Of a stretch of 64,000 bases of DNA, positions 10,330 through 26,705 are shown one piece after another; the first letter of the stretch is position 1, and every line of letters starts with the position of its first letter. This stretch comes from Clostridia bacterium (GTDB lineage: Bacteria > Bacillota > Clostridia > Oscillospirales > Acutalibacteraceae). Location: positions 62,001 through 126,000 of the forward strand of contig JAFQBE010000019.1 of NCBI GenBank assembly GCA_017416765.1. The letters are read 5' to 3'. The notes beneath the pieces are model-generated. The model saw nothing but the letters and a program-made list of their open reading frames with translations, did not search any database and had not been told where the DNA came from. A program made the translations under genes and the position numbers.

Positions 10330-12468
10330 ATGAAAAAACTGTTCAAAAAATCTCTTGCAGTTATCATGGCTGTGGCTATGATGATTTGCGCCATACCGTT
10401 TACCGCATCTGCGGCTATATACAGCGGCACCTGCGGCGACAATCTCACATGGGTTCTTGATACCGAAACCGGTGTGCTTGAAATCAGCGGTACAGGGGAT
10501 ATGGAAAATTATGCTGGCTTTTATGACACACCCTGGCGTCCGTACCTTTCGAATATTACAAGTGTAACAATCGACAGCGGTGTAACAACTATTGGTAATT
10601 ATGCATTTGAATATTGTGAAAACCTCGTAAATGTAACATTTGGCGAAAACAGCCAACTTACAACTATTGGCGCAGAATCGTTTTCTTTGTGTACAAATCT
10701 AACCAATATAATACTTCCTAAAAGTTTAAAAAAAATTGGTGAATCAGCTTTTCTTTATACGGGTATTAAAAATATCACCATTACTGATAATATAACAAAT
10801 ATAGGTATATTAGCGTTTGGCTATTGTCCCTATCTTGAAAAAATAGCAGTTAGTTCACAGAATTGTTACTATTCAAATGATGAATACGGTGTTTTATTTA
10901 ATTATAACAAAACCACTTTAGTGCAATATCCCGCCGGCAATAAACAAACTGACTATGTAATTCCTGATAGTATCACGCGTATTGATACTTGTGCTTTTTA
11001 CGGTTGCCAATCACTTGTGAGTATAGATATCCCGAATAGTGTAACATCTATCGGATATAATGCTTTTACATTTTGTACTGGTATAAAAAACATAAAACTC
11101 CCTGAAAGAATAAATGCTATTGATATAAGGACTTTTGATAACTGCACCAATTTGGAAAGTATTATAATTCCAGCCAGTGTAACAAGTATAGAGAACCTAG
11201 CTTTTGTCGGGTGCACTTCTCTTACTAACATATCGTTCAAAAAGAATAGCCAACTTAAAACAATTGGTAGGGAAGTTTTTTTGAATTGCGATAACCTTAA
11301 AACCGTAATTCTTCCCAATGGATTAACGGAGATTGGTGGAGCGAGTTTTGATGATTGTTTTGCTCATATCCCTTCAAGTGTTACATCAATAGCTGATGGG
11401 AATGATTTTAGTTGTATCTGTTCCGATACAGAAGATTGCTATGCCAAAGCATATGCCGAAGAAAACGGCATTCAATTTGTACTCTGCGATGGTAACCACC
11501 ATGTTTGCGAATATGATAACGGTATAATTACAACACCTGCAACCTGTACCGAACCGGGTGTAAAAACATTTACCTGTGAATGCGGCAACAGCTATACCGA
11601 AGAAATTCCTGCAGGTCACACCCCCGGCGAATGGGAAATAATGACTGAAGCAACGGTTGAACATGAGGGACACAAGGTGAAGAAATGTACCGTTTGCCAG
11701 CAGATTGTTGAAGGTGTAAATATTCCGAGACTTGTTGAAATCAGAGATAATGAAAGTAAGATCAGGGCTGAAATCCCTGGCGATATGTATAACGGAAACA
11801 GCGTTGAGCTTTCCGTTGAAGAAGCCGAGAACGATGCCGCATTTGAATTTGTAAACAAGCTCAACGGCAGATATATGGCTTACGATATTAAAATACTCGT
11901 AAACGGCGAAGTAACACAGCCTACAGGCAAGGTTACGGTGCGTGTGCCGATTGAAGGCTTTGTATTCGGCAAATACGCGGTTTACCATATTGACCCTGAA
12001 ACCCATGAACGCGAGGAATTACCCTGTAAGCGAGAAGGTAACTATATTGTTTTTGAAACGGACAGCTTCAGCTACTTTGTAATAGCCGATGCGACGGAAT
12101 ACGAAATTCAAATCAATCAGCCGTCTGTAACAACAATAAACTACGGCGATACGCTTATTCTTCACGCTGACCTTGGCGAAACAGCCTTGCCCGAAGGTTA
12201 TTCAATTCTCTGGACGGCTGAGGGTACGGGTGTGAATATAAACCCGAGTGAAGACGGCTTGACCTGCGGAGTTACAAGCATGCAAAAGGGTGATGTAACC
12301 GTAAAGGCAACGGTAGTTGACGAAAACGGCGAAGCTATAACCGATGCAGACGGCAATGAAATAACTGCATCACAGCAATTAAAATCTAATGTAACATTCT
12401 GGCAGAAAATCGTTTCGTTCTTCAAAAATCTTTTCAGAATTTCAAGAATAATATTACAGGCAAAATAA
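10330..12468 (+). CDS. Secreted BspA-like leucine-rich-repeat surface protein
   Basis: 712 residues. A signal peptide ends near residue 29 (TASA). Then comes the unit GDNLTWVLDTETGVLEISG, which often opens BspA-type proteins. LRR_5/BspA repeats follow (about 55-375; e.g. SVTSIGYNAFTFCTGI, SVTSIENLAFVGCTSL), then a Cys/His-rich segment (about 385-460: TCTEPGVKTFTCECGNSY, KKCTVCQQIVEG) and a C-terminal Ig-like region. It ends with an aromatic amphipathic tail (FWQKIVSFFKNLF). There is no LPXTG motif. A strong site GGAGG precedes the ATG. Family members are surface adhesins or substrate-binding proteins; the target is unknown. The same N-terminal unit recurs in the genes at 21590 and 22627. Confidence 0.9.
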   Translation: MKKLFKKSLAVIMAVAMMICAIPFTASAAIYSGTCGDNLTWVLDTETGVLEISGTGDMENYAGFYDTPWRPYLSNITSVTIDSGVTTIGNYAFEYCENLVNVTFGENSQLTTIGAESFSLCTNLTNIILPKSLKKIGESAFLYTGIKNITITDNITNIGILAFGYCPYLEKIAVSSQNCYYSNDEYGVLFNYNKTTLVQYPAGNKQTDYVIPDSITRIDTCAFYGCQSLVSIDIPNSVTSIGYNAFTFCTGIKNIKLPERINAIDIRTFDNCTNLESIIIPASVTSIENLAFVGCTSLTNISFKKNSQLKTIGREVFLNCDNLKTVILPNGLTEIGGASFDDCFAHIPSSVTSIADGNDFSCICSDTEDCYAKAYAEENGIQFVLCDGNHHVCEYDNGIITTPATCTEPGVKTFTCECGNSYTEEIPAGHTPGEWEIMTEATVEHEGHKVKKCTVCQQIVEGVNIPRLVEIRDNESKIRAEIPGDMYNGNSVELSVEEAENDAAFEFVNKLNGRYMAYDIKILVNGEVTQPTGKVTVRVPIEGFVFGKYAVYHIDPETHEREELPCKREGNYIVFETDSFSYFVIADATEYEIQINQPSVTTINYGDTLILHADLGETALPEGYSILWTAEGTGVNINPSEDGLTCGVTSMQKGDVTVKATVVDENGEAITDADGNEITASQQLKSNVTFWQKIVSFFKNLFRISRIILQAK

Positions 12469-15086: not shown

Positions 15087-16646
15087 TTAAGGTATAAGTG
15101 AAGTAAAGAAGTTAACAATCCAGTTATAAATTCCTACAAAGAAATCGATTATTCTCTGGAAAAAACTTCGTTCTGCGGGTTGTTCGTTGGGTTGAGTCTG
15201 CGTTTCGGGTGCTTGGGTTGTAGTGGCTGTTGTCGGCTCGCTTTGTGTTGTGTTTTCTTCAGCCTTGGTGGTTGTTTCTTCGGCTACAGGCGGTGTTGAA
15301 GTTGTTGTTTCTTCAACATAGTGTGTTTTTTCAAGTGCTGTGCTGTAAAGCACAAGCATACCGTCTTTAACCGAGAACCAATCAATGCTGTCATTTGCGG
15401 AGTTGTAGAAAACCTGACCGTAGCGCGGCACTATACCCTTGGTGTCAACCGCCTTATCGCCTGTTAGTTCACCTTTGCCGTTGATGTAGGCTATACGCAT
15501 TGAGCTTAATTCGCTGTGGTTGTTTGTAAGCATATACGGTACGGCAATAGTGTCGGCAGAAATCTGTGCAGCTTTTGGGTTGCTTACAGTGTATATATTG
15601 TCATTCGTATAATTGGTTATATATTTTTCCTTTTGTGTTGCGAGCGTGTTTGTATCAAAAATCTGTGTGAATATATTGGCAGGGCTTTTTGTTATATCTT
15701 CGGTCGTATTCTGGTATGTACCGACCAGCAGGTAGCCGTAGTTTGTTTTTACCAGACCGCCTAATTGTCCGTAGGTTTCATTTGAGCCGTATTCACCTTT
15801 GAACTCAAAGGAATCGCCCATGACAAGTATTTCCCATTTGTTTTTACCGCTCATTTTAGTTATGTGGAAGCTTCTTTTGGGGTCGGCATCGCCGCGGTCA
15901 ACATAAATAAAGTCTGTACCGTCTTTTATAATATACTGGTGGAATGAGTGTGTTACATAAGGTGTGTATAACGGATGTTCGGGTTTAAGCTGTGTGAATG
16001 TTTTCAAATCAACCGCAAAGCCGTAGGAGGCTTGATGGTACAGTTCAATTCCATCTACCGCAAGCATCTCTCTGCCGATGTAACCTGTGATATAGTTCCC
16101 GTTTTCGCAAAGTACATTGTTGCCGCAGTTGAGCTTGCGTATACCAAGAAATGTGTCGGGTGCGTATGAAGGCATGTCAACCGTGCGGAGTATTTTACCG
16201 TCAACGGAATAGTTGTTAAGCCTGAGTGACATTGCGGTTTTGTCGTTATCAAGGTTAGGTGCACAGAAAAGAGCGTAATATGTGCCGTCGCTGCCCTTTG
16301 TAAACGCGGCAAATTCACCGAAGCTTTCCGCAACCGTAATTTCATTTATTAGTTTTCCGCTCTTGTCCGTTTCGACAATTTTCAATGTTGAATCCTTCTG
16401 CTGGATACATACTGTGTATGAACCGTTTGCGTTCTGAAATGCACTTATTGTCGGTACATAGCCGTGGTCATATCCGTCAGCGGCGGTAATGTTATCGTTA
16501 TCAACAGCGTTTACTGCGGTTACTTCGGTAACGGTGTTAGTAAGTGGCTTTTCTTCTGCTGCTGTGCTTGAAAATACAAAGGCAGACAGTATAATAATAA
16601 GCGCGGTTATAAGGCACAAGGGCTTTGGATTTTTAATGTTTTTCAT
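15087..16646 (-). CDS. Secreted protein of unknown function with Thr-rich linker
   Basis: 519 residues. A Lys-rich N-terminus and hydrophobic core form a signal peptide ending near STAA (about 30). The main body (about 50-410) is beta-rich with recurring short strands (GSYTVCIQQ, GYLLVGTYQ, FIYVDRGD), perhaps a beta-propeller; I do not recognise a named family. A Thr/Glu/Pro-rich linker (about 425-480) follows. It ends in an aromatic amphipathic tail (SFFQRIIDFFVGIYNWIVNFF) like that of the LRR protein at 10330. GGAGG lies 7 bases before the ATG. It stands alone. Probably surface exposed. Confidence 0.75.
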   Translation of the reverse strand: MKNIKNPKPLCLITALIIILSAFVFSSTAAEEKPLTNTVTEVTAVNAVDNDNITAADGYDHGYVPTISAFQNANGSYTVCIQQKDSTLKIVETDKSGKLINEITVAESFGEFAAFTKGSDGTYYALFCAPNLDNDKTAMSLRLNNYSVDGKILRTVDMPSYAPDTFLGIRKLNCGNNVLCENGNYITGYIGREMLAVDGIELYHQASYGFAVDLKTFTQLKPEHPLYTPYVTHSFHQYIIKDGTDFIYVDRGDADPKRSFHITKMSGKNKWEILVMGDSFEFKGEYGSNETYGQLGGLVKTNYGYLLVGTYQNTTEDITKSPANIFTQIFDTNTLATQKEKYITNYTNDNIYTVSNPKAAQISADTIAVPYMLTNNHSELSSMRIAYINGKGELTGDKAVDTKGIVPRYGQVFYNSANDSIDWFSVKDGMLVLYSTALEKTHYVEETTTSTPPVAEETTTKAEENTTQSEPTTATTTQAPETQTQPNEQPAERSFFQRIIDFFVGIYNWIVNFFTSLIP

Positions 16647-18996: not shown

Positions 18997-19587
18997 ATGA
19001 AAGAAATTGATATTTACGATTTTGATAAAACCGTTATTCCTTTTGACAGCGGTTCAAAGTTCTGGCTTTATTGCTTTTTGCATAATCCGTGGATTATAGT
19101 CTGCCTGCCTTTGCAGGCAGCGGCAGCAATCCCGTATCTGCTTAAAATCAAAAAACTTACCTATGCCAAAAACAGACTTTTCTGTTTTATCAGGCTGATT
19201 AACCTTGAAAAGAATGTTAAAGGCTTCTGGGATAAATACGAAAGTAAGGTTTTTGATTGGTTTATGCCTGAAAACCGTAAGCGGTATACCGTTGTCATAA
19301 GCGCAAGCCCCGATTTTCTGCTTGAAGAAATATGTTCGAGGCTTAGGGTCGATAAGCTTATCTGTACCCGCCATAACCGCCGTAACGGTACAATAATCGG
19401 AGTAAACTGCAAGGGTGAAGAAAAGGTAAAACGCTTTTATGAGGTGTTTGATGCTGCCCATGTAATAGCAGTCAGCTCTGACAGCCTGAAAAGCGATAAG
19501 CCCATTTTTTCCCTTGGAGACAGGTGCTTTCATGTTCAGAAAAACGGCGAACGCATAGAATTCGATTATAACGAAAAATATATATAA
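18997..19587 (+). CDS. HAD-superfamily (subclass IB-like) phosphatase
   Basis: 196 residues. Motif I is IYDFDKTVIPFDSG, with both catalytic Asp (positions 8 and 10), motif II VISASPDF (Ser) and a C-terminal SLKSDKPIFSLGDR in place of the usual GDxxxD motif. The cap region 20-75 is hydrophobic (NPWIIVCLPLQAAAAIPYLL) and could touch the membrane, as in phospholipid or serine phosphatases of this class. Coupled to the MBL gene. Substrate unknown. Confidence 0.82.
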   Translation: MKEIDIYDFDKTVIPFDSGSKFWLYCFLHNPWIIVCLPLQAAAAIPYLLKIKKLTYAKNRLFCFIRLINLEKNVKGFWDKYESKVFDWFMPENRKRYTVVISASPDFLLEEICSRLRVDKLICTRHNRRNGTIIGVNCKGEEKVKRFYEVFDAAHVIAVSSDSLKSDKPIFSLGDRCFHVQKNGERIEFDYNEKYI

Positions 19588-19617: not shown

Positions 19618-19653
19618 AAAGCGTGGTTTAAAAACCATGCTTTTTTCTTTTTT
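19618..19653 (+). terminator. Terminator after the HAD gene
   Basis: AAAGCGTGGTTT and AAACCATGCTTT form a 12-bp stem (one G-U), then TTTTTTC and TTTTTT. It separates this unit from the surface-protein cluster. Confidence 0.85.
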
Positions 19654-19662
19654 AGCACTAAA

Positions 19663-19702
19663 GGTTACAAAAGATTACAAATAGTTACAATGTTGTAACC
19701 TT
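19663..19702. promoter_or_regulatory. Phased TTACAA boxes / inverted repeat (candidate operator)
   Basis: TTACAA occurs three times at 10-base intervals, followed by the inverted copy TTGTAA. The outer arms AAAGGTTACAA and TTGTAACCTTT are perfect inverted repeats. The array ends about 3 bp upstream of the -35 box of the next promoter, so it is well placed as an activator or repressor site. The cognate protein is unknown. Confidence 0.6.
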
Positions 19703-19704
19703 TA

Positions 19705-19733
19705 TTGAATGTTGAAATGCCTTTTGGTATAAT
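19705..19733 (+). promoter_or_regulatory. Promoter of the surface-protein cluster
   Basis: TTGAAT, 17 bp, perfect TATAAT. The transcript leader up to the first gene (19852) is about 110 nt. Confidence 0.8.
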
Positions 19734-19795
19734 ACGGTCGAAAGGAAGAAGTATACGGCACAAGGAGGCTGATAAGCTGTTTTAAAAACGCGGTT

Positions 19796-19822
19796 AATCG
19801 CAGAACGGTCACTCCGGTTGGT
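19796..19822 (+). repeat. Left arm of a distant inverted repeat
   Basis: AATCGCAGAACGGTCAC followed by TCCGGTTGGT. Its inverted copy lies at 20347-20374 with one substitution and a small insertion. The pair encloses the membrane-protein gene 19852-20295. Confidence 0.6.
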
Positions 19823-19851
19823 ACGCTATTAAAATGCTAAAGGTTTGAACT

Positions 19852-20295
19852 ATGCAAGACTTTCTTTACGGCACTGTATTCATTATATGCCTGTTTTTAC
19901 TTGTGATTGTGTGCCAGGATGCCTTTTCGGGTGTTTTTGAGTTTGTGCTGTTTAACGGACACGAAAACGCCTATGCATTGCGGCAGACCTACAGAAAGCT
20001 CCCGTTTTTTAAAAGGTATTTTATGCTTACCGTTTTTGATGCAGAAGTTATTAAGGATTGCAAGCGTAAAAGCCTGCCGGAAAAGCTGTTCTTTGCCGAT
20101 ATAGCATACCTGCTTATAAGCAGTTTAATGCTGGTGTCAAAAAGCTGTTTTCTGGTTTTGAAAATTCACAAGTACGATTTGGTGTATATTATTTATTTCG
20201 TTTTACTTGTATCACTGTATATCGGCTATACGGTTTACAGTATCCGTTGGGATAAAACGCATAAAGGAACCGGTAACGCAGACAAAGAAAATTGA
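19852..20295 (+). CDS. Small membrane protein of unknown function
   Basis: 147 residues with three likely transmembrane helices (about 4-24, 80-102, 108-130) and a charged loop between the first two (LRQTYRKLPFFKRYFM). The C-terminus is polar and Lys-rich. I recognise no family. It is the first gene downstream of the promoter at 19705, and a 28-bp inverted repeat flanks it. The ribosome site AAAGG is moderate. It may be a membrane component of the secreted-protein cluster that follows. Confidence 0.65.
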   Translation: MQDFLYGTVFIICLFLLVIVCQDAFSGVFEFVLFNGHENAYALRQTYRKLPFFKRYFMLTVFDAEVIKDCKRKSLPEKLFFADIAYLLISSLMLVSKSCFLVLKIHKYDLVYIIYFVLLVSLYIGYTVYSIRWDKTHKGTGNADKEN

Positions 20296-20346
20296 ATTTT
20301 CAATTTGCCTATGAAAAAAGGAACAAAACAGAAGAAAGAACGGCGG

Positions 20347-20374
20347 ACCAACCGGGGGTGACGGTTCTGCGATT
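20347..20374 (-). repeat. Right arm of the distant inverted repeat
   Basis: Reverse complement of 19796-19822 with one substitution and one extra C. It lies 33 bp before the microprotein gene at 20407. Confidence 0.6.
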
Positions 20375-20406
20375 GTTAAGAATGAAGAATTAAGGAGGAG
20401 TTTTAT

Positions 20407-20571
20407 ATGGATTCAATTTTTGATTTTCTCAACAATGCATTCAATTCTTTGGGTAATTACATTTCTGTCGATGCAGCTTTTCTGTTCAATCTCCTTGTTG
20501 CACCGCCTTATATCGCTATACAGCATTTTGTTATCGCACCAATTGCAGAATTCTTTGCAAATTTGTTTTAA
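20407..20571 (+). CDS. 54-aa hydrophobic microprotein (paralogue of 24924)
   Basis: 54 residues after a perfect AAGGAGGAG site 7 bases before the ATG. It begins MDSIFDFLNNAF and continues into a hydrophobic half with two Ala-Pro pairs (32-33 and 44-45) and the end IAEFFANLF. No signal peptide cleavage site and no charge cluster; it probably lies in or along the membrane. The 45-aa product of 24924-25061 shares the MD-x-I start and the pattern AP-x(9-10)-AP-x(3/4)-F-x2-N. It lies 32 bp before the first cluster protein, so it is probably co-transcribed. Function unknown. Confidence 0.65.
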   Translation: MDSIFDFLNNAFNSLGNYISVDAAFLFNLLVAPPYIAIQHFVIAPIAEFFANLF

Positions 20572-20603
20572 CATAACCTGAGTATACCTAAGGAGGAAAA
20601 ACA

Positions 20604-21548
20604 ATGAAAAACACTTTCAAAAAGTTTATAGCTGTTCTTTTATCGGTGCTAACCTGTCTATTATGCGGTGTTACGGCTTTTGCCGAAGGTGAAAATACAC
20701 CTGCAGAAAAGCCGGAATCTGACTTTACCTGTTACGGTTATCAGTTAAGCGATTATTATTCAACGGATTTTATTGTTGTTACCTTTGACGGCAAGTATTC
20801 GCGGATTGGCGAAATTCCCGAGGTGTGTATTGTTTTTGACAGAAACGGCAAACAATTCTTAACAGAAGATTCAATCACATTGAAAGTTTTCGAGAATGAG
20901 GGAAAAAGATATCCGCAGTTGTTTATAAAAACAAGTTGCGTTGATATAAGCCGTATTGAAATCGGTGCAGGTGCTTTTGTTACAGAATCGGGTGAAACCA
21001 GCGGTAGGCTTGAAATACCAAGCAATAAAATAACCCAAGCTTATGATTTAGGTGTGTTGTGTAAGCTCGAGATGTTTGAAGTGGAGGAAAACATTGATTT
21101 AATAACCGGTAAATCCGTTCGCTATGCAACAGTCGGAAAGCCTGTCAGAATAGTAGCTGATTCTGAATTCGGCAAGGTGTGGTTTGACGAAATTACAGCT
21201 GCATACACTGTAAACGGAGAAACTACCGAAATAACTTCCAATGAATTTGTGCCGCAGGAGCCTGGCAGCTATGTTATTGATTTGAAGTTTGGCAATATTA
21301 CCGTCGGAAAATGGGAGCTTGTTGTTCTGAGCGAAAGCGAGGCTTATTCAAAGAGCCTTCTTGACGCAACTGAATGGCTGCTTCTTACACCGTTGTATCT
21401 TGTGCTTGGTACAGGGTTGTTTGTCTTAATACCGGGCTTCGGAACATGGATCGGCTCAACAACATTGATGGCTGCTGTTTCTATGATACCTCGCTTTTTT
21501 ATGGTCCTTTTTGACGGTCCTATATATAACGAATATATACTCAAATAA
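20604..21548 (+). CDS. Secreted, C-terminally anchored surface protein, family A (copy 1)
   Basis: 314 residues. The signal peptide is TFKKFIAVLLSVLTCLLCGV ending TAFA (about 27). The outside domain is about 230 residues, beta-rich, with an Ig-like end (YTVNGETTEIT ... GSYVIDLKFG). One or two hydrophobic helices follow (about 258-305) and end DGPIYNEYILK. The copy at 23819 has an almost identical signal peptide and the same layout. A strong AAGGAGG site precedes it. I recognise no named family. It is probably displayed on the cell surface and held by its C-terminal helices. Confidence 0.75.
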   Translation: MKNTFKKFIAVLLSVLTCLLCGVTAFAEGENTPAEKPESDFTCYGYQLSDYYSTDFIVVTFDGKYSRIGEIPEVCIVFDRNGKQFLTEDSITLKVFENEGKRYPQLFIKTSCVDISRIEIGAGAFVTESGETSGRLEIPSNKITQAYDLGVLCKLEMFEVEENIDLITGKSVRYATVGKPVRIVADSEFGKVWFDEITAAYTVNGETTEITSNEFVPQEPGSYVIDLKFGNITVGKWELVVLSESEAYSKSLLDATEWLLLTPLYLVLGTGLFVLIPGFGTWIGSTTLMAAVSMIPRFFMVLFDGPIYNEYILK

Positions 21549-21589
21549 AATTAACAGCGACCGAATACACAAATTAAGGAAGAAAAACG

Positions 21590-22612
21590 ATGAAAAACAA
21601 TCTCAAAAAAATGCTCTCGGTAATTCTTTGTGTAGCACTTCTTTTTACAACCGCAAGCACAGCCTTTGCGGCGGAGGAAAGCCGAACGGTTGTCGATTCG
21701 GGCTATTGCGGTGCACAGGGCGAAAACCTCACATGGACACTCTATTCTGACGGTGAACTTGTCATCAGCGGTGAAGGTGAGATGGCTAAAGAAATAGTGC
21801 CATGGGAGGAATACTATTCGTCTATTAATGTTATTACCGTTGAGGAGGGTGTAACATCTTTAGCTAAGTGGGCGTTGTATGCTAATTTGAGTGGTAAGGA
21901 ATACAGCAGAACCTATCTTGTGAATCTTCCTAAAAGTCTCAGGGTTGTTACCCCAATTGAAAAATATACAGATACTAATGGTCAAACAATTATTGTGTGT
22001 TACGCAGGTTCAGAAGAGGATTGGAGTAAGGTTGAATTATTAAATTACACTGATAGCGTGACAATCGGGCCGGATTTTTCCCGGGAATTTATGGGCAGTT
22101 GTGCTAAGATGTATTTTAACGGAGAAAAGCCCGAAGCTTTTTGTCACATCTATAATGCACAGGGAAATATAGATTCTCCCGGAGAGGAGATAGAAGTGTA
22201 TGCACACTATTACACAGCCGGAAATAAAGCAGAAAAAATTATTATGTATTCTATCAACGACGGCAAAGAAGAGATAATTTCTGAATTTGCCGTTGGCAAA
22301 GATAACAAAACAACTGTGGTTATACCTGAGGCTAAAAAAGGCGAACTGTATGTTAGGGCAGACCTTGTCGCTGCTGACGGAAGTGTTATTGCCTCTTCTG
22401 AAAACTGTCACATAAAAAATGACGCAATTGATAACAGACCGCTTAATGAAAAAATAAAAGATACTATGGAAGAGCTTTGGGCAGGTACTATACTTCTTGG
22501 CGGTTTTACCTTCGTTTATGGTTTTCTTGCACCTATTATCGGTGTTGTGTTTTCGCCTTATTATCTTTTTTTGACTATCAGGGAATTGGTCAGAAATGCA
22601 AAGAAAAATTAA
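21590..22612 (+). CDS. Secreted, C-terminally anchored surface protein, family B (copy 1)
   Basis: 340 residues. Signal peptide NNLKKMLSVILCVALLFTTA ending AFAA (about 27). Then a BspA-type opening unit (CGAQGENLTWTLYSDGELVI), one LRR_5-like repeat (VEEGVTSLAKWALY ... CYAGSEEDWSKVE), an Ig-like domain (about 195-275) and C-terminal hydrophobic helices (about 290-325: FLAPIIGVVFSPYYLF) with a basic end. It is a short relative of BspA LRR proteins. Paralogue of the next gene. Role unknown. Confidence 0.78.
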   Translation: MKNNLKKMLSVILCVALLFTTASTAFAAEESRTVVDSGYCGAQGENLTWTLYSDGELVISGEGEMAKEIVPWEEYYSSINVITVEEGVTSLAKWALYANLSGKEYSRTYLVNLPKSLRVVTPIEKYTDTNGQTIIVCYAGSEEDWSKVELLNYTDSVTIGPDFSREFMGSCAKMYFNGEKPEAFCHIYNAQGNIDSPGEEIEVYAHYYTAGNKAEKIIMYSINDGKEEIISEFAVGKDNKTTVVIPEAKKGELYVRADLVAADGSVIASSENCHIKNDAIDNRPLNEKIKDTMEELWAGTILLGGFTFVYGFLAPIIGVVFSPYYLFLTIRELVRNAKKN

Positions 22613-22626
22613 GAGGAGGATAAACG

Positions 22627-23694
22627 ATGAAAAACAATCTCAAAAAATTGCTCTCGGTATTCTTGTGTGCTGTGCTTATTTTTACTACCGCAAGCGTAGC
22701 CTTGGCGGCAGATGGAACTCGAACGGTTGTTGATTCGGGCTATTGCGGTGCACAGGGCGAAAACCTCACCTGGACACTCTATGACGACGGCGAACTCGTT
22801 ATCAGTGGTGAGGGTGAAATGGATTGGTATTTTCTTAGCTATTCTATCGAAACATCTAAGCTACCGCCGTGGTATTCATATTATGACAAAATTGATGTCA
22901 TTACTGTTGAAGACGGTGTATCAACCATAGGGCATATGGCGTTTTATCCACTTAACAGTAATATGAAGGATGTTAGATACTTTCGAATTAATTTACCTAA
23001 GAGTTTAAAAAGTTTTAACAGCAAAATATATAATAAATCATCAGTGCGTTATGTTGCGATATGTTATGCAGGCTCGGAAGAAGATTGGAACCAAGTAGAA
23101 TTTAAGAGGTACGATTATAGTATCAGATTTGAGGATGAAACATGGTTTGAAAAAGCCTATATCCATTCGACTTATGGATTTACCTTTGGTGATAGATATA
23201 TAATGTGCTTTAACGGTGAAGAGCCACATGCATTTTGTGAATTGGCTGCGGAACAGGATAATTATAATAGTAGCGCAGGTAAAGAAGTACCGATATATGT
23301 AAAATATTATTCTGAAAAAGATGCTGTTAAAATTGTATTTTATTCAATTCTTCGAGGTAAAACAGAAAAAATTAATGAAGTGAAAATAAGTGATATTTCT
23401 TGGGGATTAGGCACAACTGTAATATTGCCTGAAGGAAAAAAAGGTGATATGTATGTTAAGGCAGAGGTAGTTGCTGATGATGGTACGATTTTGGTAACAT
23501 CAGACGATTATTTACTTAAAAACACAAGTGTTGATCATAGAACACTTGGCGAAAAAATTAAAGATGGACTTGCTATGGCAAACTTTACAGTTTTCTTTAC
23601 AACATTCTTCCTTATCATACCTATGATTCTTGCTCCCATTACCGAGCCTCTTGCTTTCATAATTGCGCTTGTACAAGGAAATTTCTGGGATTAA
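22627..23694 (+). CDS. Secreted, C-terminally anchored surface protein, family B (copy 2)
   Basis: 355 residues, a tandem paralogue of the gene 14 bp upstream. The signal peptide and the BspA-type unit (RTVVDSGYCGAQGENLTWTL) are nearly identical at residues 1-65; after that the two diverge strongly while keeping the layout (CYAGSEEDWNQVE, Ig-like domain, C-terminal helices with LAPITEPLAFIIALV). Conserved ends with a divergent middle suggest duplication followed by diversification of the binding part. AGAGGAGG is the ribosome site. Confidence 0.78.
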   Translation: MKNNLKKLLSVFLCAVLIFTTASVALAADGTRTVVDSGYCGAQGENLTWTLYDDGELVISGEGEMDWYFLSYSIETSKLPPWYSYYDKIDVITVEDGVSTIGHMAFYPLNSNMKDVRYFRINLPKSLKSFNSKIYNKSSVRYVAICYAGSEEDWNQVEFKRYDYSIRFEDETWFEKAYIHSTYGFTFGDRYIMCFNGEEPHAFCELAAEQDNYNSSAGKEVPIYVKYYSEKDAVKIVFYSILRGKTEKINEVKISDISWGLGTTVILPEGKKGDMYVKAEVVADDGTILVTSDDYLLKNTSVDHRTLGEKIKDGLAMANFTVFFTTFFLIIPMILAPITEPLAFIIALVQGNFWD

Positions 23695-23750
23695 TGATAG
23701 GTGTAATTTACTTTCTTGCACCCAATAAAAGAAAGATGAATATATAAAAC

Positions 23751-23770
23751 GGTTGATTCGTGAATCGACC
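23751..23770. repeat. Short palindrome between cluster genes
   Basis: GGTTGATTC-GT-GAATCGACC, a REP-like hairpin, related to GATTC-AC-GAATC near 12810. No T run follows, so it is not a terminator. Confidence 0.45.
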
Positions 23771-23818
23771 ATACAATGTTGATATCTTGAAAACTATAAA
23801 TCAAGAGGAGAAAAAATA

Positions 23819-24775
23819 ATGAACAACACTTTTAAAAAATTTTTGGCTGTACTTCTGTCGGTGCTGACCTGCCTTTCGTGCGGTGTTACGGCGTTTGCCG
23901 AGGAAGAAACACCCGAGGAAATACCTGCAGAGAGCTTCACCTGTGATCATTTCAATGCTAGGGCGGTAGATATTGCAGTGGTTACTTTTGACAGTAAGTA
24001 TAGCGCAATCGGTGAAACACCGTATGTAGTAGTTGATTTAATAGAAGTTACTTTATCAAAGGAAATAAAACGCACGGAGATAGATAAAGACCGAATTCAG
24101 ATGAAAATTTATGAACATAACGGCAAACGTTATCCTCAACTGTTTATCGATGTCGGTCCTTGCTGGCGGATTTTGTCACTTGAAATCGGTGAAGGCGTTT
24201 TTGTAACAGCAGACGGAGAAAAAAGCGCAAAGTTATATATCAAGGAAAATCAAATGAATTTATCCGATTGGAACTTCACAATCAAAACTGAATATGAGGC
24301 ATATGGTATTACCAGAAATATTTTAGATTTAGCTAATATGGATACATACTACTATGCAACCGTTGGTAAGCCAATTAAAATTAATGCTGTTATAGAAGGT
24401 AAATATGCTGAAGTCTGGAAGGAAAATGTTGAATTTACATATACCGTTAACGGAAAAACCGTTGAAATAACCGGTGATGAAGTTATACCTGAAGAAGCTG
24501 GAAAATATGTATTCAGCCTTAACCTTGATGATTGTTTGAAGATGCATAGAAACGTTACGGTTACTACGGAAGCTACCGCATATTTTGATAATTTAGGTAT
24601 GTATGGAACATTATTTTTGCTTTCACCGCTTATGTTTGTTGGTGGTGTACTTGTTCTTTTGTACCCGGGCATAGGCTTGCTTGCCGCTCCGAGCTTTTTC
24701 AATGCGGCTATTATGAGTGTGCCGGATTTCTTCAAGGCACTGTTTAACGGCCCTGAATATACCGTAAAAACATAA
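23819..24775 (+). CDS. Secreted, C-terminally anchored surface protein, family A (copy 2)
   Basis: 318 residues, paralogue of 20604-21548. Signal peptide TFKKFLAVLLSVLTCLSCGV ending TAFA, a beta-rich outside domain with FTYTVNGKTVEIT near 220, and C-terminal hydrophobic helices (about 262-308) ending NGPEYTVKT. The signal and the C-terminal 'PxFFxxLFxGPxY' segment are conserved with copy 1; the middle has diverged. AGAGGAG ribosome site. It is the last of the A-B-B'-A' series. Confidence 0.75.
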   Translation: MNNTFKKFLAVLLSVLTCLSCGVTAFAEEETPEEIPAESFTCDHFNARAVDIAVVTFDSKYSAIGETPYVVVDLIEVTLSKEIKRTEIDKDRIQMKIYEHNGKRYPQLFIDVGPCWRILSLEIGEGVFVTADGEKSAKLYIKENQMNLSDWNFTIKTEYEAYGITRNILDLANMDTYYYATVGKPIKINAVIEGKYAEVWKENVEFTYTVNGKTVEITGDEVIPEEAGKYVFSLNLDDCLKMHRNVTVTTEATAYFDNLGMYGTLFLLSPLMFVGGVLVLLYPGIGLLAAPSFFNAAIMSVPDFFKALFNGPEYTVKT

Positions 24776-24829
24776 TTATAAAAACCTAATGAAATCCAAT
24801 CGGTGGTTTTATTTACCGCTTGCGAAATA

Positions 24830-24858
24830 TTGCTTTGCTTTTAAAAATACTGTATAAT
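24830..24858 (+). promoter_or_regulatory. Promoter of the 45-aa microprotein
   Basis: TTGCTT, 17 bp, perfect TATAAT. It gives the microprotein its own transcript of about 250 nt. Confidence 0.7.
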
Positions 24859-24893
24859 ATACACAGGCTCAAAGATACATAAAAAGGAATGTG

Positions 24894-24917
24894 CTTTTTG
24901 CCGCAAAAAGAAGGAGG
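24894..24917 (+). promoter_or_regulatory. Hairpin abutting the ribosome binding site
   Basis: CTTTTTG-CCG-CAAAAAG is followed without a gap by AAGGAGG. A stem that touches the Shine-Dalgarno sequence could tune initiation of the microprotein. Confidence 0.5.
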
Positions 24918-24923
24918 TATATT

Positions 24924-25061
24924 ATGGACGGTATAATGCAGTTTATCGGCGAGCTCGGTGACAGCCTGTCGTTTGTATTCGGCTACGCTTTTGCACCTGT
25001 TTCAATTATTTTCGAGCAGGTGTTTGCACCAGTGATTCTGTTTATCCAGAACATGATGTAA
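24924..25061 (+). CDS. 45-aa hydrophobic microprotein (paralogue of 20407)
   Basis: 45 residues, starts MDGIMQFIGELGDS and continues as one hydrophobic segment with Ala-Pro pairs at 24-25 and 35-36, ending FIQNMM. Perfect AAGGAGG 6 bases before the ATG, its own promoter with TATAAT and a terminator hairpin nearby: the gene is clearly set up for strong expression. It resembles the 54-aa product of 20407. Possible roles are a membrane partner of the cluster proteins, a signal or a toxic peptide; none can be decided from sequence. Confidence 0.68.
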   Translation: MDGIMQFIGELGDSLSFVFGYAFAPVSIIFEQVFAPVILFIQNMM

Positions 25062-25154: not shown

Positions 25155-26705
25155 TCAGTGCTTGAAGTGGCGCATGCCTACAAAGAGCATTGCAATGCCT
25201 GCTTCGTTACAAGCCTTGATAGAATCTTCGTCACGGATTGAGCCGCCCGGCTGAATAATAGCTGTAATGCCCGCTTCCTTTGCTGCCTTTACACAGTCGT
25301 CAAAGGGGAAGAATGCATCGCTGCCCATTACGCTGCCTGCTGCCTTGTCACCTGCGTACTTGATAGCAAGCTCAAGCGCAGTAATGCGGTTTGTCTGTCC
25401 GGGGCCGATACCTGTTGTAGCGTTGTCCTTTGCAAGTGCAATGCCGTTGGACTTGGTGTGCTTGACAACCTTCCATACGAACATAAGCTGCTTCATTTCT
25501 TCCTCTGTGGGCTTTCTGTCTGTTACGCAAACAATATCTTCCTCGTTAAGAAGCTCTGTGTCAAGCTCCTGAACAAGCAGACCGCCTGCAACCTTCTTCA
25601 TGTCAACAAGACCCTTCTTGTTGGGTGCTGCAAGGTTGGGAAGCTCAAGAAGGCGGATATTCTTCTTAGCTGTGAGAATTTCAAGTGCCTTTGCGGAGAA
25701 CGAGGGAGCGATGATAATTTCAAGGAAAATCTTTGCAAGCTCATTTGCTGTGTCCTCGTCAACCTCTCTGTTGAGGGCAACAATGCCGCCGAAGATGGAA
25801 ACAGGGTCAGCGTTGTATGCGTTGAGGTATGCTTCGTGAATTGTGGAGCCAATACCTACGCCGCAGGGATTAGCGTGCTTGACACCAACTGCAACAGGCT
25901 CGTCAAAGCCGAATTCCTTAATTATGTCAAGTGCGCCGTTTGCATCGTTGATGTTGTTGTAGGAAAGCTCTTTACCGTGGAGCTGCTTTGCTGCGGAAAG
26001 AACATTGTCAGCTGCACCGATTTCGGTGTAGAAGGCTGCCTTCTGGTGCGGGTTTTCGCCGTAGCGCATATCCTGAACCTTTTCAAAGGTCATTGTGAAG
26101 CAGTTTGCAAACGGGTCTTCGCCGCGCTGCTTGCGAAGGTATGTGTTAATCATTGAATCGTAGTTTGCTGTATGCTCGAATACCTTGCCTGCAAGCATGA
26201 ACTTTGTTTCCTTGCTCGGTGCGCCGTTAGCCTTGTATTCGTCAATAACTGTTTTGTAATCTGCAGGGTCAACAATAACTGCAACATCCTGCCAGTTTTT
26301 AGCTGCTGCGCGAATCATTGTCGGACCACCGATATCTATATTTTCAATAGCATCTTCAAGTGTAACATCGGGCTTGAGAATTGTCTGCTTGAAGGGGTAA
26401 AGGTTGATTGCAACAACGTCAATCGGTGTTACATTGAGCTTTTCAAGCTGCTCCATATGCTCGGGGTTGGAACGCATTGCAAGTATACCTGCGTGTACCA
26501 TGGGGTGGAGAGTTTTAACTCTGCCGTCAAGGCATTCGGGGAAACCTGTAATGTCGGAAACCTGTGTACAGGGGATGCCTGCATCTGCTACAGCCTTTGC
26601 TGTGCCGCCTGTGGAAATAATTTCAAAGCCGAGCTCGTTGAGCTCTTTTGCAAATTCTACGATTCCTGTTTTGTCGGAAACGCTCAGAAGTGCTCTTTTT
26701 TTCAT
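25155..26705 (-). CDS. purH: Bifunctional AICAR formyltransferase/IMP cyclohydrolase
   Basis: 516 residues, normal for PurH, which performs the last two steps of IMP synthesis. The N-terminal cyclohydrolase (MGS-like) domain has [34 protein letters not shown] and [15 protein letters not shown]. The C-terminal transformylase has [21 protein letters not shown] and [11 protein letters not shown]. Last gene of the operon, 15 bp after purN. Confidence 0.98.

Follow-up and report, generated by a model that had tools for sequence, protein, structure and literature searches.

Arrays of variable surface proteins at a fixed chromosomal site are a known general kind of locus, and bacterial surface proteins and adhesins with Ig-like or FN3 domains are among the systems closest to the one described here. 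BspA-type LRR surface proteins (LRR_5, PF13306; 4h09 of Eubacterium ventriosum) resemble one of its secreted families, B, in the opening cap and first LRR unit, and leaderless bacteriocins and PSM-like peptides (phenol-soluble modulins) are short, leaderless and amphipathic, as are its two microproteins. In the window (the whole 64,000-nt stretch of DNA that was analysed), the genes run from M, which encodes a small membrane protein, and p1, which encodes a peptide of 54 aa, through four genes for secreted-type proteins with signal peptides and hydrophobic tails in the order A1-B1-B2-A2, to p2, which encodes a peptide of 45 aa; this agrees with the gene inventory of an initial annotation of this DNA (Table 1). 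The neighbouring minus-strand gene, which we take to be purH, marks the site. The A-B-B'-A' order emphasized by the initial annotation is true of the window, but it was found in the window only and is not kept in relatives. Overall, what that annotation observed is partly confirmed and how it interpreted the cluster is partly supported. We favor, with a probability of roughly 0.55, the reading that this surface-protein locus is specific to the lineage, turns over fast and includes two membrane microproteins under constraint.

Table 1. Features of the locus and its flank (positions in the window).
Feature	Position	Strand	Description
Promoter region	19664..19733	+	Three TTACA direct repeats ~10 nt apart, then TTGAAT-17-TATAAT, extended TG (19705-19733)
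M inverted repeat, left arm	19796..19826		Imperfect, ~31 nt
M, 147-aa membrane protein	19852..20295	+	
M inverted repeat, right arm	20343..20374		
p1, anionic hydrophobic microprotein, 54 aa	20407..20571	+	87% identical orthologue in G302
A1	20604..21548	+	Signal peptide; predicted two beta domains (first Ig-like) and helical-hairpin anchor
B1	21590..22612	+	Signal peptide; opening unit of BspA-LRR type; predicted FN3/Ig-like domain (by its homology to B2); tail hydrophobic
B2	22627..23694	+	B1 architecture; sister of B1 in the tree (86/92)
A2	23819..24775	+	Old paralogue of A1; groups with G148_Ab and G301_Ab (94/94)
p2 own promoter, as read	24830..24858	+	TTGCTT-17-TATAAT
p2, anionic hydrophobic microprotein, 45 aa	24924..25061	+	84-87% identical in G230, G292 and G302
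purH (presumed)	25155..26705	-	Conserved neighbor marking the site; outside the system

A is predicted to consist of two beta domains, the first Ig-like, followed by a two-helix anchor. In B, a BspA-type LRR opening unit would be followed by a domain of FN3/Ig-like type and then by a tail of helices. When the A and B profiles were compared, the alignment was confined to residues 1-33, the signal peptide. The proposal that the B proteins borrow the opening unit of BspA LRR proteins holds up: the cap and first LRR unit are present. An LRR_5 search matched four of eight B members at E ≤0.1 (best E 0.04), below the Pfam cut-off; B2 scored 13.2 bits vs 27.7, and an above-threshold LRR_5 domain with several repeats was not found in B. 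Through its LRR part, B2 also matches a PHROG of unknown function (E 2e-8), as does B1 (E 0.003). Display at the surface is well backed by the sequences, with their signal peptides, their membrane tails, their Ig/FN3-like and BspA-LRR domains and their fast evolution; it is the better supported half of the suggestion that this is a surface-display or inter-cell system; the inter-cell half was not borne out.

Within the genus, an A/B array lies next to purH in seven of the eight genomes in which purH was found, and one lacks it. The arrays read AABB, AAB, A, BB, BAA, B and AAA; different sets of two unrelated secreted families with hydrophobic tails are thus found at this fixed site. Some genomes have old A paralogues that others lack, and two B copies in the genus lie away from the site (G000:C8 and G230:C9). 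In G148, there is a duplicated fragment of a neighboring gene. Of 11 genus genomes, four have p2 and two have p1; both peptides were found solely in the purH-side array, where p1 immediately precedes the first A in both of its carriers. The company of p2 is A alone in G292, B alone in G230 and both in G000 and G302; these four copies represent one orthologous site and hence are not independent. In G148, G301 and G303, p2 is missing and the arrays persist; together with the promoter that p2 has of its own, this indicates that A and B do not need p2.

A1 evolves far faster than purH. Relative to the window, four A1 orthologues have dN 0.24-0.30, dS 0.62-0.71 and dN/dS 0.38-0.46, and purH in four genomes has dN 0.015-0.023 and dS 0.42-0.61. 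Orthologous A1 proteins are ~60% identical, whereas the peptides are 84-87% identical with low dN/dS (0.05 for p1, window vs the G302 orthologue; 0.14-0.21 for p2 vs the window), and therefore the ectodomains turn over and the peptides are constrained. The first 37 codons of p2 are nearly invariant, with 2 of 37 residues varying. Both p2 and, in two genomes, p1 are constrained coding genes found solely in the locus. The initial annotation described both families as conserved at the first or last parts and diverged in the middle, as expected under diversifying pressure. For A1 and A2, the signal peptide is indeed 89% identical, but the remainder is 34-45% identical throughout; for B1 and B2, the first 66 residues are 75-87% identical, but divergence is greatest in the tail (24%). 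Among A1 orthologues, the most constrained segment is the membrane segment (codons 261-290, pN/pS 0.13), and no 30-codon segment has pN/pS above 1 (maximum 0.85), a result that does not support diversifying pressure. Signal peptides and one tail are common to different families. In the second A of G302, codons 2-28 share 85% DNA identity with the B of the same genome and 47% with that genome's own first A. Similarly, a stretch of 39 tail residues (59%, E 5e-12) is common to a G148 protein of 198 aa and a G230 B, which otherwise match in the signal peptide alone.

Both peptides have a net charge of -4 and contain neither K nor R. They have no leader; an N-terminal amphipathic helix (moment 0.53 in p1 and 0.43 in p2) is followed by a hydrophobic half. 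Of the AP...AP...F-x2-N pattern said to link them, AP...AP...F is common to all six p1 and p2 sequences, and the final F-x2-N is present in the window p2 and both p1 but absent from the three p2 orthologues. The similarity of the window p1 and p2 was reached by 1 of 1000 composition shuffles in local and 0 of 1000 in global alignment (4 of 1000 local for the G302 p1). It stood out only modestly when the hydropathy pattern was preserved in the shuffles, being reached in 110 of 5000 local and 22 of 5000 global (391 and 110 of 5000 for the G302 p1). Common descent of p1 and p2 is likely, though not proven. We also considered whether the peptides are detached membrane tails of A or B and rejected this: a profile of 11 tails (9 from B, 2 from other signal-peptide proteins), searched against 3613 ORFs, did not match p1 or p2 and recovered only its own seed families at E <0.1. 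In pairwise comparison with 17 tails or tail-like stretches, only 2 of 34 pairs scored at ≤2 per 1000 shuffles.

Beyond the locus, a combined p1 and p2 profile gave genuine matches in 3 of 398 family genomes, every one of the genus, in a sample that holds 7 genus members including 3 of the 4 p2 carriers; we discarded weak partial matches from another 12 genomes (E 0.004-0.05), several of which lie in long ORFs or contain stops. A scan of 84,980 species genomes, which depends on one of two exact peptide patterns, returned for p2 three genus loci and, in a MAG of the Acetobacteraceae, a single match of 21 residues that we take as chance; the same pattern-dependent type of scan found nothing for A1. 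The A profile, with at most five candidates scored per genome, matched in 125 of the 398 family genomes, and among the matches listed nearly all were to the signal peptide only. Full-length A beyond the genus was seen, among the matches listed, in G227 and in G330 (two), and the genus member G305 has a distant A. G300, G301, G302 and G304 were left out of this search; A in G301 and G302 was read from the locus sequences. For B, three g133 and two g16 genomes matched beyond the genus at E <1e-25, once two g80 matches to the N-terminal part of long ORFs had been set aside. In other genera, A and B each occur singly, unaccompanied by p1 or p2. The expected co-occurrence of A, B and the peptides is thus seen in part: same-site arrays in seven of the eight genus genomes with purH found, and peptides found nowhere else, speak against a pure chance grouping, but A occurs with B in just three of the seven arrays and both occur singly, without the peptides, in other genera.

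A microprotein placed before a secreted protein is unsupported as a general rule. G291, which belongs to a different genus, has a hydrophobic ORF of 50 aa ahead of a tailed signal-peptide protein of 180 aa; among 9 genomes searched this case is confined to its own genome, with one 33% match elsewhere (E 0.08). A mobile origin was likewise rejected, as p2 and A have no relatives in viral contigs and p2 and A2 none in plasmids; p1 has no relative in phages. None of the seven proteins matched a family of the PADLOC anti-phage models at E ≤0.01.

M has no significant homologue among the compared loci or in Pfam/NCBIfam. It lies between the arms of the imperfect inverted repeat, and none of 100 shuffles yielded two matches. 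A viral match to this repeat was found. The promoter-like match at 19705-19733 fits 10 of 12 consensus positions, in a scan whose 20 sites are about as frequent in shuffles (mean 16.9, sd 3.0). The p2 promoter was missed by this consensus scan because its -35 matches at 3 of 6 positions only; across the four p2 loci its -10 hexamer is identical in all four and the preceding TG is present in three.

In the fast-turnover surface-protein reading, Sec would export A and B, their C-terminal helices would hold them in the cytoplasmic membrane, and the Ig, FN3 and LRR-cap domains would reach into or through the wall, where they might meet variable partners such as host mucosa, other microbes, phages or wall polymers. 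Most tentatively, p1 and p2 might be embedded in the membrane as small accessories in this envelope zone, the amphipathic helix of the N-terminus lying at the surface and the hydrophobic segments, kinked by Pro, in the bilayer; if so, they would contact the more constrained membrane parts rather than the ectodomains. The initial annotation proposed that the microproteins serve the membrane complex; for A and B this is possible but found no direct support, as p2 goes with the locus and not with A or B, carries a promoter of its own and is missing from three genomes that keep arrays. The stronger version, in which p1 and p2 are dedicated subunits of a display platform with interchangeable A and B carriers, in one ruminant-gut lineage and without described relatives, we consider distinctly improbable.

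We weighed three other explanations. Secreted genes and peptides might simply pile up beside purH in a recombination-prone spot, which would fit the free change of gene content and order, the single A and B elsewhere, the repeats around M and the duplicated fragment in G148. However, p2 is kept under low dN/dS in four genus genomes and was not found elsewhere in the family sample, and in each of its two carriers p1 comes right before the first A, so that we judge chance grouping unlikely. We also doubt that p1 and p2 are self-standing, membrane-active, leaderless secreted peptides, akin to phenol-soluble modulins or leaderless bacteriocins, that merely share the variable locus with the surface proteins. 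Their lack of a leader, their amphipathic and hydrophobic halves, the own promoter and strong Shine-Dalgarno of p2, their purifying selection and their independence of A/B content are what such peptides would show; however, leaderless bacteriocins are mostly cationic, and an exporter or immunity gene was not recognised among the seven proteins. Least credible to us is that they are toxins of type I toxin-antitoxin pairs, or similar small hydrophobic regulators, that stabilise the variable locus. Size, hydrophobicity, the p2 promoter and restricted spread would suit this, and at p1 the minus strand has two weak promoter-like sites that overlap it or abut on it (20471-20444 and 20610-20581), but the scan shows no such site at p2, its sites are at about shuffle level overall, and the window has no Rfam match at gathering scores.

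Surface proteins that turn over so fast at a fixed site usually mark a host, phage or competitor interface. Should the peptides prove to act with the displayed proteins, the locus would clearly exemplify a swappable display set built on a microprotein core, and it would open a way into the surface biology of uncultured Clostridia of the ruminant gut; otherwise, it is still a well-defined example of how arrays evolve when paralogues are gained and lost and when signal peptides and tails are exchanged.

We met no cluster of like kind in the literature, which is weak evidence given the limited coverage of that search. The A1, B1, B2 and A2 proteins differ from LPXTG sortase substrates, as no LPXTG precedes the C-terminal hydrophobic stretch in their translations, and p1 and p2 differ from leaderless bacteriocins in charge. 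In contrast to BspA-type LRR proteins, B retains the opening unit only and continues with a predicted FN3/Ig-like domain and membrane tail. With variable surface-protein arrays the locus shares one-site paralogue turnover, module exchange and fast ectodomains; unlike them, it has no recombinase recognised among its seven proteins, and it combines two unrelated families with constrained leaderless microproteins.

In the window, we found that seven plus-strand genes lie between a HAD-type gene and purH: M (a 147-aa membrane protein), p1 (a 54-aa microprotein), the secreted proteins A1, B1, B2 and A2, and p2 (a 45-aa microprotein). None of the seven proteins has a match above cut-off in Pfam or NCBIfam; we presume the identities of purH, of the epimerase and PEP-synthase-like genes and of rpoA/rplQ from reading the sequences. 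The promoter-like site ahead of the cluster has an extended -10 and is preceded by a terminator-like hairpin, and p2 has, as read, its own promoter, whose -10 hexamer is the same in four genomes. Immediately upstream of the cluster promoter's -35 stand three TTACA direct repeats, spaced by ~10 nt, together with one inverted copy, in an operator-like arrangement. Within the leader, imperfect ~31-nt inverted repeats flank M, and the stretch they enclose may be invertible or may have been inserted as a cassette; the repeat's 17-base core matches only the window's own copies among 143 fetched loci, and a single exact match to it in a viral contig (L144) may be chance. Two more secreted proteins of the window, of 519 aa and 712 aa (the latter of BspA LRR type), have short aromatic-rich helices at their ends, FFQRIIDFFVGIYNWIVNFF for example, which may be a further type of anchor; a profile of the B tail had no match to these ends.

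Coordinates of features in the window and, where an L number is given, in fetched loci
Feature	Locus	Position	Strand
712-aa secreted protein	window	10330-12468	
519-aa secreted protein	window	15087-16646	
HAD-type gene (left neighbour)	window	18997-19587	
Terminator-like hairpin	window	19618-19643	
TTACA repeats	window	19664-19700	
Promoter-like site	window	19705-19733	
Inverted repeats	window	19796-19826 / 20343-20374	
purH (right neighbour)	window	25155-26705	minus
105-aa ORF of G148	L028	4951-5268	
B homologue	L042	6649-7728	
B homologue	L138	5215-6252	
50-aa ORF	L141	7826-7978	

To compare the site, we used a genus sample of 11 genomes, in 8 of which purH was located (G300, G304 and G305 fall outside the comparison). 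A gene of 136-138 aa separates the array from purH in all six relatives with arrays; the one copy scanned is DUF3592-like at E 2e-4, below cut-off. This gene is absent from the window, and so are the two genes, epimerase and PEP-synthase-like, on the relatives' other flank. Three relatives are, by name, sheep-rectum or goat-colon Clostridia MAGs.

Genes beside purH in eight genomes
Genome	Content
G000 (window)	A,B,B,A with p1 and p2
G148	A,B,A; two secreted proteins (198 aa, 182 aa)
G292	A with p2
G230	B,B with p2
G302	B,p1,A,A,p2
G303	B
G301	A,A,A and 198- and 182-aa proteins
G018	no array; next gene ~170 bases after purH

The initial annotation would regard its cluster as a chance grouping if homologues of A, B and the peptides lay in unrelated places and never together; homologues of A and B are indeed found apart. 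A third B of the window's genome (on C8) and one B of G230 (on C9) lie away from the purH site, and in other genera, without p1 or p2, A occurs alone in G227 (one copy) and G330 (two) and B alone in three g133 and two g16 genomes. Within the genus, however, most A and B copies and every p1 and p2 copy found share one site, so the locus is inherited as a real unit. In two different genera, B homologues stand a few genes downstream of rpoA/rplQ, which suggests that the B family formerly resided in this neighbourhood.

In the A tree, the groups are old paralogues: A1 is placed with G302 and G292 sequences (support 91/99), A2 with copies from G148 and G301 (94/94), and one further type unites G302 with G301 (100/100). 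B1 and B2 are sisters (86/92); of the four forks, the strict mark of 95/80 is reached by the 100/100 one alone. Signal peptides were exchanged: this region of G302's second A has 85% DNA identity to the same genome's B and 47% to its own first A. The 198-aa protein of G148 and a B of G230 have a common 39-residue tail (59%, E 5e-12), and outside it the signal peptide is their sole other match. In the G148 array, a 105-aa ORF is a second copy of the C-terminus encoded by the adjacent PEP-synthase-like gene (785 aa), a scar left by tandem duplication. Our results as a whole support a locus for surface display whose ectodomains can be swapped.

We calculated dN/dS by counting (Nei-Gojobori with Jukes-Cantor, custom script). 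With the window as reference, values are 0.04 for purH and 0.14-0.21 for p2, the latter from small counts (~11-13 synonymous and 8-11 replacement changes, most replacements in the last eight codons); p1 gives 0.05 and four A1 orthologues 0.38-0.46. Synonymous divergence is broadly similar among p2, A1 and purH, p1 being the exception (dS 1.28). Conservation within A1 is highest in the membrane segment (261-290; 87%, pN/pS 0.13), and pN/pS does not rise above 0.85 in any 30-codon window of A1; A1 evolves fast under weak constraint, and positive selection is not proven.

We found p2 at full length in 4 of the 11 genus genomes (E <= 2.1e-31; next best match 0.15) and p1 in two (E <= 4e-27; next best 0.001, within a 513-aa ORF). 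Across 398 family genomes, seven of them from the genus, genuine matches to p1 or p2 occur in three, all genus members. Both peptides have a net charge of -4 with no K or R, and an amphipathic start followed by a hydrophobic remainder that contains two AP steps. In another genus, an unrelated 50-aa proline-rich hydrophobic ORF (L141) with a strong ribosome site stands ahead of a 180-aa signal-peptide protein; it is not conserved in 8 other genomes searched, bar one weak match.

The initial annotation had the microproteins serve the membrane complex. Membership of p1 and p2 in the same membrane assembly as A and B is compatible with the sequences, since the peptides occur at this locus exclusively, p1 directly precedes the first A and the A membrane segment is constrained; it is weakened because p2 has its own promoter and is independent of A or B content, and because arrays persist without p2. 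In the purH tree, p2 carriers are the window genome, whose placement is unsure (support 47), and the G230/G292/G302 group (75), and G303/G148/G301 (100) are without p2. One loss or one gain would explain this distribution, and the four p2 copies therefore do not count as independent evidence that p2 is linked to A and B. That the peptides are dedicated subunits of a surface-display assembly strikes us as improbable. Taken together, we favour, at a probability of about 0.55, a lineage-specific, fast-turnover surface-protein locus with constrained microproteins.
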